NCBI RefSeq assembly: GCF_028330985.1
Contig: NZ_JAQMUE010000112.1
Span: 62,001 to 126,000 of the forward strand
Source of the DNA: Roseofilum reptotaenium CS-1145
GTDB lineage: Bacteria > Cyanobacteriota > Cyanobacteriia > Cyanobacteriales > Desertifilaceae
Reading direction: 5' to 3'
Length of the DNA stretch: 64,000 bases
The notes beneath the pieces are model-generated. The model saw only the letters and a program-made list of their open reading frames with translations, was not told the DNA's origin and made no database searches. The translations under genes and the position numbers were made by a program. This document shows, piece by piece, positions 48,836 through 59,628 of this stretch (position 1 is the stretch's first letter; every line of letters starts with the position of its first letter).

Positions 48836-49684
48836 ATGTTTAATCTTCCCATGGGATTGATTGCTGGAGCAACTTACCCGTTTCGCGCTTTGGCATTATT
48901 GGTGAATGAGCCTAAATTGCGCGGTTATGTGATTGTGCCCATTTTAATCAATATCTTGATTGGTATTGCGCTCTATGTGGGTTTAGTGTTTCCCGGTTTG
49001 GAACTGGTGGATACTCTGACACAACAGTGGACGTTTCAGTGGAATCAATGGATCGCTAGTTTACCGATGTGGTTAGGGTTTTTGACTGGGTTCACGGTGG
49101 TTCTGCATTGGCTGTTAAATGTTTTGGTGCTGTTGGTGTTATTCCTGGTTACAGGCTTTTTGTTGGTTCAATTTGGGGCAATTTTAGGGTCTCCCTGGTA
49201 TGGTCAATTATCAGAACAAATTGAGAAAACACGCCTGGGACAACTGCCGCAGATCAATACTCATCCGTTGGCGATCGCCCAGGATATTTGGCGAGCCATC
49301 CTGTTTGAGTTAAAAAAATTACTGTTGATGGCGATCGCTGGTATTCCCCTATTGCTATTTAACTTTATTCCGGCGATCGGCACGCTGCTCTTTAGCATCG
49401 GCAGTTTAACCCTAGCGACAACCCTCGTTTGCCTAGATTTTTTTGATTCTCCTCTAGAGCGCCGCAAGCTTCCCTTTCGGCAAAAGTTAACCTTAGTTTG
49501 GCGCACGTTTCCCGCCAGTGCCACGTTTGGCTTAGTGTGTTTTGGATTGGTGAGTGTTCCGTTTATCAATATCTTAACGGTTCCCCTTTGTGTGTCTGGT
49601 GGCACTCTATTGTTCTGCGATCGCATTTGGCCCCATCATTTTACCCAAGAGCGATCGGATATAGCGCTTGGGACTAGGGAATAG
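48836..49684 (+). CDS. EI24/CysZ-like membrane protein
   Basis: A 282-residue membrane protein of the EI24/CysZ superfamily with about six hydrophobic segments (GYVIVPILINILIGIALYVGLVF, MWLGFLTGFTVVLHWLLNVLVLLVLFLV, LLMAIAGIPLLLFNFIPAIGTLLF). CysZ relatives move sulfate, and cysH lies ~1.1 kb away, but the intervening gene is on the other strand, so a sulfate role is only suggestive. The last residues (SDIALGTRE) and the TAG stop come from a dispersed repeat also found elsewhere in the window. Confidence 0.72.
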   Translation: MFNLPMGLIAGATYPFRALALLVNEPKLRGYVIVPILINILIGIALYVGLVFPGLELVDTLTQQWTFQWNQWIASLPMWLGFLTGFTVVLHWLLNVLVLLVLFLVTGFLLVQFGAILGSPWYGQLSEQIEKTRLGQLPQINTHPLAIAQDIWRAILFELKKLLLMAIAGIPLLLFNFIPAIGTLLFSIGSLTLATTLVCLDFFDSPLERRKLPFRQKLTLVWRTFPASATFGLVCFGLVSVPFINILTVPLCVSGGTLLFCDRIWPHHFTQERSDIALGTRE

Positions 49685-49687
49685 GGA
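49660..49687 (-). repeat. Dispersed TTCCCTAG..GCGCTATA repeat at gene 3' end
   Basis: The reverse complement reads TTCCCTATTCCCTAGTCCCA, then AGCGCTATATC. Related copies are at 9348-9376, 23034-23065, 34499-34517, 41041-41066 and, inverted, 5344-5379. Here the element overlaps the final codons and the stop codon of the EI24 gene. Confidence 0.55.
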
Positions 49688-49695
49688 AATTCTAG

Positions 49696-51462
49696 TTAAC
49701 GCGCTCCATTGATTCTATTTGTGGAGTAGGAAACATTGAATAACCCTTCAGATGCTTCCATTTCTGAAGGGTTATTCAATGTTTCCAGGGGAGGAGATTC
49801 TATAGGTTCTTTTAAGGGCGCAGAATCGACTAAATCGGGAAATTCGATCGTCTCTTGAGCTTCTTCTTCTAACACTTCTGGAGTCTCGATTTCCTCTTTT
49901 ATAACTTCGGGTTCAAGTGCTTCAGGTTCTGGGGTTTCAATTTCTTCTTCTACAGGTTCGGGTTTAAAAGGGGATTCAATCACTTCTTCTACAACTGGGG
50001 ATTCAGGGGTAATTTCCAGAGTCTCTTCTGGCTCTAAAGCTTTATTGCCAAAGGGATTAATAGACTTAACATCAAGTTGGTTCCATTTGGATTTTAGGCG
50101 ATCGCGCCACTGATTCAGATTCAGTTGCTTACGCCATGCTGGAGTCTCACTAACCACTTGTTCTGCTTCCTCTTCTGCTCCTGAAGATTCTGGTATTATT
50201 TCTTCTGGTTCTACCGTTTCTATCGGTTCTAACTCTGGAGTTTCTAGAATCTCTTCTTCTACGTCCACAGTTTCAGAAATCTCTTGTTCTATAGGTTCCT
50301 CGACTGGTGAGATGTCCAAAACCTCTACCTCTGTGGTGTCCTGAACGTCTTCCTCCACTTCCAGAATTTCCAAAATCTCTTCCTCTACCTCTGGAGTTTC
50401 AGGCACTTCTTCCTCAACTTCAGGTTCCGGAAGCTCTTCCTCCGCCGCTATTGGTTCTTCCTGCGGTTCTAAAACTTCCGTCTCCGGTGCAGCAGTGGAC
50501 GGAGCGATGTAGTTTGGATCGACAATACCTTGGGCCACTTCAGCACTAATTTCACCTCGGATGAGTTGAGACAGGGTATCCGTAGCTTCAGGATCATAGG
50601 TTACCAAGCGAGCCGTGGTATTGAAAACATTGTTAACCGGGTTACCCAGTTCATCTAGAATTTCCAGTTTGACCCAGTTTTTGCCTCGGTCAAATCCTTT
50701 CAGATAGAGAGGTTCCCAGCGATCGAGGATAAACTCTTCTCCGTTTACCGATGCTCGAATCCGCCAGTCTAGAATATTGTCCTCTGAATTTTCTTGCGCG
50801 ACGACATGCAGAGGCGCATTGGTGAGATAGAAATCTAACAGAATGGGTTCGGCTCCATACGTGCCGATGGGATTGCTATAGGTGAGCAGGGGAAGGTCAG
50901 GATTAGGGATTTGGTCTTCAGTTTTCGTAAAGATGTGAAACGTGGTTTGGGCGTAAGCACCTTCATTTTTGAAGCTCTCTCCCCAGGGAGTGGTGGCGAA
51001 TACTCTAATCGTATGGGTTCCCAGATTGAGGTTGCTAAACCTAACCGGTTGGGATAGATCATAAAGGGTTGTATAGGGTTCGTTGTCTAGGGTCACTTCC
51101 AGGTGAGGCCCTAAAGCTAGATTCGGGTCTTTATATATAGGTAAGTCTTGAACGTCGAGTTTTAGGGTAAAGGTTGTGTCTTGGAGTGTTTGCTCAGGTT
51201 GAGGATTGAGGATTGTGACTTGGGGTTGGTAGGTTTCGAGAATTGGCCGTAGTTTTTGGATGGCTTCTGGGGGCGAGACTTCAGCGATTTTTGGGGAAAT
51301 TTCCCGCTTGAGAGGATTGGAGATCCCGGAGGTGGGATTGGGGAGATTGAGGCTTCCTTGATCCCCACAACTGACAACTCCCAGGGATAGACCCAGCACT
51401 AACATGAGTCCTAAGAGGCTTGAAACCATGCGTTTCCCGATTTTCTGACGCAACACCGACAT
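49696..51462 (-). CDS. Putative lipoprotein with long acidic Glu/Pro repeat region
   Basis: A 588-residue exported protein. The N-terminal hydrophobic segment ends in a lipobox-like LGVVSC (Cys near residue 32). Residues ~75-300 are beta-rich (two Ig-like/beta-sandwich stretches: VTILNPQPEQTLQDTTFTLKL, VRFSNLNLGTHTIRVFATTPWG). Residues ~325-570 are a highly acidic low-complexity region of repeating EEEIxETPE/PExEE units, interrupted by one basic patch (WRKQLNLNQWRDRLKSKWNQ). The C-terminus is encoded by a perfect 24-bp inverted repeat. Family unknown. Likely an extracytoplasmic surface or scaffold protein. Confidence 0.65.
   Translation of the reverse strand: MSVLRQKIGKRMVSSLLGLMLVLGLSLGVVSCGDQGSLNLPNPTSGISNPLKREISPKIAEVSPPEAIQKLRPILETYQPQVTILNPQPEQTLQDTTFTLKLDVQDLPIYKDPNLALGPHLEVTLDNEPYTTLYDLSQPVRFSNLNLGTHTIRVFATTPWGESFKNEGAYAQTTFHIFTKTEDQIPNPDLPLLTYSNPIGTYGAEPILLDFYLTNAPLHVVAQENSEDNILDWRIRASVNGEEFILDRWEPLYLKGFDRGKNWVKLEILDELGNPVNNVFNTTARLVTYDPEATDTLSQLIRGEISAEVAQGIVDPNYIAPSTAAPETEVLEPQEEPIAAEEELPEPEVEEEVPETPEVEEEILEILEVEEDVQDTTEVEVLDISPVEEPIEQEISETVDVEEEILETPELEPIETVEPEEIIPESSGAEEEAEQVVSETPAWRKQLNLNQWRDRLKSKWNQLDVKSINPFGNKALEPEETLEITPESPVVEEVIESPFKPEPVEEEIETPEPEALEPEVIKEEIETPEVLEEEAQETIEFPDLVDSAPLKEPIESPPLETLNNPSEMEASEGLFNVSYSTNRINGAR
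49729..49786. repeat. Perfect 24-bp inverted repeat (10-nt loop)
   Basis: Left arm 49729-49752 (starts GGAAACATTGAATAACCC) and right arm 49763-49786 (ends GGGTTATTCAATGTTTCC) are exact reverse complements, with loop TGCTTCCATT at 49753-49762. It lies wholly inside the 3' end of the acidic lipoprotein gene. No T-tract follows on either side, so an ordinary terminator is unlikely. Confidence 0.9.
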
Positions 51463-58264: not shown

Positions 58265-58584
58265 TCGTGTATATATCCTTGTATGGTTCTGGTTCTATGA
58301 TCTGCGATCGCTTCCTGATTCTTCCAATCCTTTGGCTTATTTTCAAATTTGCACCCATATCCCCTCCTGGCCAACATGGAGGAATGACTTAATTCTTTTT
58401 ACATATAATTTGATACGCTAAATCCATGGTAACTTAAGAGATTTCATCATGGAATATCACTCCTACAACACTCAATTCCCTGCTCTCACTTGCGTCTAAC
58501 AAGGGGCACTCAGCCCCTTGCCTCTTGATGATCGATTAGAGGAAACCTTAGAAAGAAATGGTTTCAGGATTCAGAATAGTTAAC
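58265..58584. other. Gene-poor stretch with a mini-ORF and terminator-like hairpin
   Basis: On the plus strand ATG 58449-58451 opens a 16-codon frame (MEYHSYNTQFPALTCV) ending at 58499. It is followed at once by CAAGGGGC (58500-58507), loop ACTCA and GCCCCTTG (58513-58520). No further gene lies in that direction before the convergent znuA, so it is not a normal leader peptide. Nothing else is seen. Confidence 0.35.
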
Positions 58585-59628
58585 TTATTCATTTAAAGCG
58601 TCAGCTAAATTAGTTGCATTTTGTTCCATAATCGTCAAATACATAGTGGGTTCAGTACTGGTTGAACCTCCTGTTTCGATTGGATCAAATGTACTAACTT
58701 CAATTTTGAGATCTTGAGCTAGAGTTTCAAAGGCTTTAGTGTTTCCTTGCTGATCTTGGAGTAAGGCTTGAATCTGTTCGGCTTGCACAATTTCGATCAA
58801 GCGGCGCACATCTTCAGGAGAGGGATTTTCTTCCGGAATGTCTACCAAGAATTCAGCTCTGAGACCATAACTCTGAGCAAAATAATTGGCAAAATCATGG
58901 AAGGTGATAAAGGTTTGTCCGGCGTAAGGTTTCAGTTGTTCGGTAATCTGAGCATCTAAGCTTTTGAGTTCCTCGATAAAAGCAGCAGCATTTTGGGTAT
59001 AAACTTCTGTTCCTTCTGGATCAGCCGCAATTAAAGCATCACGAATATTTTCGACTTGCTCAATTGCTCGTTTGGGATCGAGCCAAATATGAGGATCGAA
59101 TTCTCCATGATCATGACCATGGTCGCGATCATCTTCATCACCATGGTCATGATCATCTTCGTCGCCATGGTCATGATCATCTTCATCACCATGATCGTGG
59201 TCATCATGGTCTTGTTCTGCAAACTTTAACGGTTCAATACCGGAACTTGAATCAACGATGACTAAATTGGTATTCTCCGCATTGTTAATGAGGTCATCTA
59301 GAAAAAATTCTAGTTCTAACCCATTTTTAATCAATATATCCGCTTGGGCGATCGCCTGAACATCCCCAGGTTTAGCTTGGTAGTCATGGGGGCCGATGTT
59401 AGTTGGTAGTAATTGTATGACTTCTGCGCGATCGCCGGCCACTGCCTTCGTAAATTGGGTAATCGGCAAAAATGTGGTCACCACCTCCAAGTCGTCTTGC
59501 TCTTCCACAACGGCTGTATTTTGCCCTGTAATGGGTTCAGTGCTGGAGTTAGAAACACAACTGACGAGAGATAGGGCAGTGAAAACCGCGATCCCCAATT
59601 GACTTACTCTCTTTCCTGGAATGATCAT
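58585..59628 (-). CDS. znuA: Zinc ABC transporter substrate-binding lipoprotein ZnuA
   Basis: Periplasmic zinc-binding protein of a ZnuABC uptake system. The 347-residue protein has a lipobox-like LVSC (Cys24), the metal-ligand His81 in IGPHDYQ, a His/Asp-rich loop at 141-174 built from DHDHGDED repeats, His180 in DPHIWLDP, and a later His in FHDFANYFAQSYG. This is the cluster A-I/ZnuA layout. The znuB/znuC genes are not in the window. A Zur-like palindrome sits 13 nt upstream of the start. Confidence 0.92.
   Translation of the reverse strand: MIIPGKRVSQLGIAVFTALSLVSCVSNSSTEPITGQNTAVVEEQDDLEVVTTFLPITQFTKAVAGDRAEVIQLLPTNIGPHDYQAKPGDVQAIAQADILIKNGLELEFFLDDLINNAENTNLVIVDSSSGIEPLKFAEQDHDDHDHGDEDDHDHGDEDDHDHGDEDDRDHGHDHGEFDPHIWLDPKRAIEQVENIRDALIAADPEGTEVYTQNAAAFIEELKSLDAQITEQLKPYAGQTFITFHDFANYFAQSYGLRAEFLVDIPEENPSPEDVRRLIEIVQAEQIQALLQDQQGNTKAFETLAQDLKIEVSTFDPIETGGSTSTEPTMYLTIMEQNATNLADALNE
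59131..59202. repeat. Three tandem 24-nt repeats in the znuA His-rich loop
   Basis: Units at 59131-59154, 59155-59178 and 59179-59202 are near-identical. The first begins ATCTTCATCACCATGGTCAT. They encode successive DHDHGDED octapeptides. Slippage at such units would change the number of metal-binding histidines. Confidence 0.85.

Follow-up and report, generated by a model that had tools for sequence, protein, structure and literature searches.

A perfect 24-bp hairpin in a Roseofilum lipoprotein gene as the probable scar of a local template switch

Mutation by template switching is well studied in laboratory Escherichia coli and has been documented in yeast, in primates and in RNA genes. The closest described systems are the quasipalindrome-associated template switches of E. 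coli, known from the thyA hotspot, from the lacZ QP reporters and from the model put forward by Ripley in 1982 (PMC7202029). In yeast, template switching homogenises the arms of inverted repeats within coding genes, lengthening those of UTP5 from 4 to 11 bp and those of REG2 from 5 to 16 bp, with inversion of the spacer as the mark of the intermolecular route (PMC8604942). For RNA genes, Monttinen and Loytynoja argue that template switching can build long perfect stems in a single step (PMC8794818). The literature searched, a part of the whole, yielded no paper describing a natural cyanobacterial case. Here we describe a perfect inverted repeat in the cyanobacterium Roseofilum reptotaenium CS-1145 which we read, with a probability of about 0.9, as the trace of a single replication error in the ancestry of this strain, a local template switch of the quasipalindrome type involving two switches.

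The repeat is found well away from the ends of a 162.9-kb contig, within the last ~30 codons of a gene for an acidic lipoprotein (49696-51462, minus strand; 588 amino acids) and upstream of its stop codon; positions throughout are those of the window, the whole stretch of 64,000 nucleotides that was analysed. The protein begins with a signal peptide and a lipobox (MSVLRQKIG...LGVVSC; lipobox GVVSC), is rich in glutamate over its C-terminal half and matches no Pfam or NCBIfam family. Homologues were found in all 39 of the 39 genomes of the order searched (that of CS-1145 included), and among the named records matching the protein the closest relatives are other Roseofilum (R. halophilum, R. acuticapitatum and the MAG UBA2566). 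Convergent to it stands a gene for a membrane protein of the CysZ/EI24 family (48836-49684, plus strand; 282 amino acids; Pfam PF07264, E 5.5e-40), hereafter the cysZ-like gene, whose 3' end overlaps a dispersed short heptamer-like repeat at 49660-49688 (..TTGGGACTAGGGAATAGGGAA) that recurs at ~40 other places in the same genome and also in several congeners.

A preliminary description of this DNA had reported a perfect inverted repeat inside coding sequence that no T-tract accompanies, and each element of that report is confirmed. The arms, at 49729-49752 and 49763-49786, are complementary at every position (24/24) across a 10-nt loop (49753-49762), and both are translated within the lipoprotein reading frame; inspection of the letters on both sides reveals no T-run after either arm, and a terminator pattern scan does not list the hairpin. 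The stem has an energy of about -39 kcal/mol on either strand, with fold z-scores of -9.2 and -7.5. In a census of perfect inverted repeats across 789 kb of the CS-1145 genome (arms of at least 15, loops of up to 60 nt; n = 17) it is the longest, the next being two of 20 bp. Eight of the remaining repeats have arms of at least 17, and five of these fall outside any open frame of 80 amino acids or more. The window holds a second inverted repeat at 59107-59156, near-palindromic over 59107-59180, which corresponds to the His/Asp-rich loop of a ZnuA-like metal-binding lipoprotein reading frame (58585-59628, minus strand) and is explained by HDHGDEDD-type codons.

The history of the site can be read from a comparison of the CS-1145 genome (G000) with those of five congeners (G001 to G005), of which G001 is the closest, at ~94% nucleotide identity in aligned stretches; a protein scan of genome contigs recovered congeners and no second strain of the same species. 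In the alignment, the coding strand reads ..CTGGAAACATTGAATAACCCTTCAGA AATGGAAGCA TCTGAAGGGTTATTCAATGTTTCC TACTCCACAAATAG.. in CS-1145 and ..CTGGAAACCTTGACTAACCCTTCAGA AATGGAAGCA TCCGAGTCGGAAGAAATGCTCTC TACTCCAAGGATAG.. in G001. The upstream coding arm (49763-49786, minus strand), which encodes ETLNNPSE, is identical to G001 at 22 of 24 positions and can also be aligned in frame in G002, G004 and G005: it is ancestral, and is the source from which the other arm was templated. The loop (49753-49762, minus strand; coding AATGGAAGCA) is likewise ancestral, with 10/10 identity to G001 and no inversion. The downstream coding arm (49729-49752, minus strand), which encodes ..SEGLFNVS, is the derived target, with only 12/24 forward identity to G001, as against 22/24 when read as the reverse complement of G001 sequence at most 60 nt away. 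Sampling of the G000/G001 alignment gave ~39,700 windows, of which 407 had such low forward identity (14/24 or less), and the target has the best reverse-complement score of them all; the typical best is 11-12, windows scoring 20-21 are overlapping windows of the hairpin site itself, and the best elsewhere is 19. The replaced sequence is shared by G001, G002, G004 and G005 (..GAGTNG..AAATGCT.TCTA..CCA, the last three matching G001 at the downstream arm as GAGTGG..AAATGCT.TCTA..CCA) and encodes a conserved peptide, x-M-L-S-[TN]-P; the tail of G003 differs and carries no information on this point. Because four congeners share the replaced sequence, it is CS-1145 that is derived, its upstream arm being old and its downstream arm new, and collinearity is kept on both sides of the replaced segment. 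Comparison of homologues, as the preliminary description had proposed, thus finds the hairpin in CS-1145 but in none of the four congeners whose tails are homologous; those tails give fold z-scores of 0.2 to 1.1 against -9.2.

The replacement altered both the sequence and the frame of the protein tail. Between the shared motifs GCATC and TACTCC lie 21 nt in G001 and 22 nt in CS-1145, a net gain of one that shifts the reading frame by one. Accordingly, where the congener-type protein ends in ..SEMEASE-SEEMLSTPRIESMERVN before its stop, that of CS-1145 ends in ..SEMEASE-GLFNVS-YSTNRINGAR, in which the six codons of GLFNVS were written by the copied arm and the ten codons of YSTNRINGAR (49699-49728, minus strand) are old DNA read in a new frame. 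The old tail remains legible in the +1 frame, as TPQIESMERVN and a stop in CS-1145 and as TPRIESMERVN and a stop in G001. The ancestral stop codon, TAG at 49692-49694 (minus strand), recognised from the alignment with G001 and the +1-frame reading, is now out of frame, and translation ends instead at a new TAA (49696-49698, minus strand). The rewriting is probably close to neutral, because it affects the variable end of a C-terminus that is acidic and rich in repeats.

The suggestion, made in the preliminary description, that a template switch created the C-terminal residues is supported by the congener alignment: source arm and loop are ancestral, the target now carries the source sequence in reverse complement, and one nucleotide was gained. 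From these features we infer a single event with an intrastrand fold-back geometry. The upstream arm and loop of the lipoprotein coding strand would have been copied first. A short stretch of imperfect complementarity (TCAGA/TC[C or T]GA) would then have let the nascent strand fold back and use its own upstream arm as template for ~22 nt, before synthesis resumed on the regular template near the shared AATG..TC|TACTCC. The outcome would be that 21 ancestral nucleotides were swapped for 22 and a perfect 24-bp hairpin was left behind. On the coding strand, synthesis reaches the source before the target, and the loop is not inverted, which makes intrastrand fold-back the simplest geometry; comparison with G001 places the loop in its forward orientation, and inversion of the spacer is absent. 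The complementary blocks that might have seeded the switch were identified by eye (TCAGA/TC[C/T]GA beside the loop, and further out CATT, in the CS-1145 source arm, with AATG) and at 4-5 bp are too short for significance; G001, whose inner block reads TCAGA/TCCGA, has no stable fold at the site.

More than one mutation separates CS-1145 from G001 here, since the source arm carries two differences (C in G001, A in CS-1145) and three adjacent substitutions at 49719-49721 turn AGG in G001 into CAA in CS-1145 on the coding strand, 8-10 nt past the return point. The AGG to CAA substitutions may belong to the same complex event as the arm rewrite. It was considered whether the C-to-A change at arm position 7 of the source, which pairs with AATG, had been corrected from the target; the other source difference does not fit this idea, and the change was left as chance. 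The exact arms, and an old frame that can still be read, are what a fairly recent switch would leave. By our own estimate, however, at ~6% divergence, arms with no mismatch have roughly a one-in-four chance even if the event is as old as the split from G001, and its age is therefore only loosely bounded. The event is bracketed only by that split.

In a simple scan, ~120 kb of the G000/G001 alignment was examined for clusters of mutations in which neighbouring sequence has been copied as its reverse complement. This gave 5 hits with CS-1145 as derived and 6 with G001 as derived, compared with 1 and 2 for reversed-only controls and 0 and 0 for complement-only controls, the hits including the same event seen from both sides as well as heptamer repeats. 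A 14-nt change at ~137389 of contig C112 of CS-1145 and a 12-nt change at ~150084, both relative to G001, are probably short inversions produced by template-switch events. Within the window, an intergenic perfect hairpin at 58500-58520 (CAAGGGGC-ACTCA-GCCCCTTG) has its 5-nt loop inverted (TGAGT) in G001; sequence related to it occurs at four other places in G001, and it may be a small dispersed repeat. All three changes look like real short inversions, and local template switching seems to operate in this lineage. The event at the lipoprotein gene is the largest arm rewrite in the ~120-kb sample.

Several other readings of the hairpin must be weighed. Its stem is very stable on either strand and lies 44 nt past the cysZ-like stop codon, which is itself only 11 bp from that of the lipoprotein gene, and a structure so placed might act as a bidirectional terminator or 3'-end protector for both transcripts, having been made by template switch or by selection and being kept by selection now. 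Such a functional RNA element is unlikely, however. An intrinsic (Rho-independent) terminator consists of a GC-rich stem followed immediately by a U-tract, and a T-tract is lacking on both strands; the hairpin lies upstream of the lipoprotein stop; and it is folded by none of the four congener tails. Moreover, in G002 (C4) and in G005 (C107) separate contigs carry the lipoprotein gene and the cysZ-like homologue, so that the convergent arrangement has been rearranged within Roseofilum and is not conserved in the genus. With neither a U-tract nor a congener hairpin, nothing points to a conserved RNA element, and the proposal of an RNA stability element for the convergent pair finds no support. 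That the stable stem past the cysZ-like stop nonetheless affects 3'-end stability is equally doubtful. Somewhat less likely again is a broader scenario in which short-range template switching would be frequent in Roseofilum and the convergent pair would have come to use the new hairpin as a signal for RNA 3' ends or termination; if this were true, one replication error would both have rewritten a protein tail and made a regulatory element.

An artefact of sequencing, amplification or assembly has also to be considered, as fold-back chimeras do yield perfect inverted repeats and the genome is a draft of 113 contigs. It is very unlikely to explain a site well inside a 162.9-kb contig at which collinear ancestral DNA resumes after 22 nt: this would take a second switch coordinated with the first, whereas a chimera, having a single junction, stays inverted. 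Perfect symmetry, in a genome that contains small dispersed repeats, might equally bring to mind a mobile or repeated element, whether a REP/MITE-like palindrome, a transposon footprint or a recombinase or protein-binding site. REP and MITE elements have several genomic copies, and a search of the CS-1145 genome for the 24-mer, also proposed beforehand, returned this single locus at up to 3 mismatches; viral contigs contain no exact match. One arm, furthermore, is simply ancestral coding sequence, and a net change of just +1 nt means that nothing was inserted. Without a second copy or a viral match, nothing suggests a site of recombination or mobility, the recombination or protein-binding site envisaged in the preliminary description is not borne out, and the whole class of explanation is highly improbable. 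Chance symmetry of codons, finally, has a negligible probability. From base composition, perfect arms of at least 24 with a loop of 0-60 nt are expected ~2e-8 times per 64 kb and ~2e-6 times per genome, in keeping with the initial judgement that the symmetry is improbable by chance, and here the symmetry was gained through the wholesale replacement of one arm.

The template switch that we favour is, as a mechanism, an ordinary and well-known type of mutation, and the locus is an unusually clear natural bacterial example of it, in which a single case shows the source and the target of the copy, its polarity, the orientation of the loop and the effect on the protein. It also illustrates that a long perfect hairpin in coding sequence, easily mistaken for a terminator or a binding site, can arise in one step. 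The likeness to the E. coli systems is that an imperfect inverted repeat would be made perfect by nascent-strand copying, with the frameshift that is typical of such events; the difference is that those systems correct existing quasipalindromes at laboratory hotspots and reporters, whereas here, in a lineage from nature, ~22 nt were rewritten and the putative seed is a weak one of 4-5 bp. With the yeast genes it shares the homogenisation of arms inside a gene, with altered amino acids as a consequence, but the yeast arms reach 11-16 bp, and those of Roseofilum extend to 24 bp, carry a net +1 frameshift and belong to a bacterium. As in the template switching proposed for RNA hairpins, one event would have given a long perfect stem to a sequence whose ancestor had no such structure, although the Roseofilum site is protein-coding and gives no sign of a role for its hairpin.
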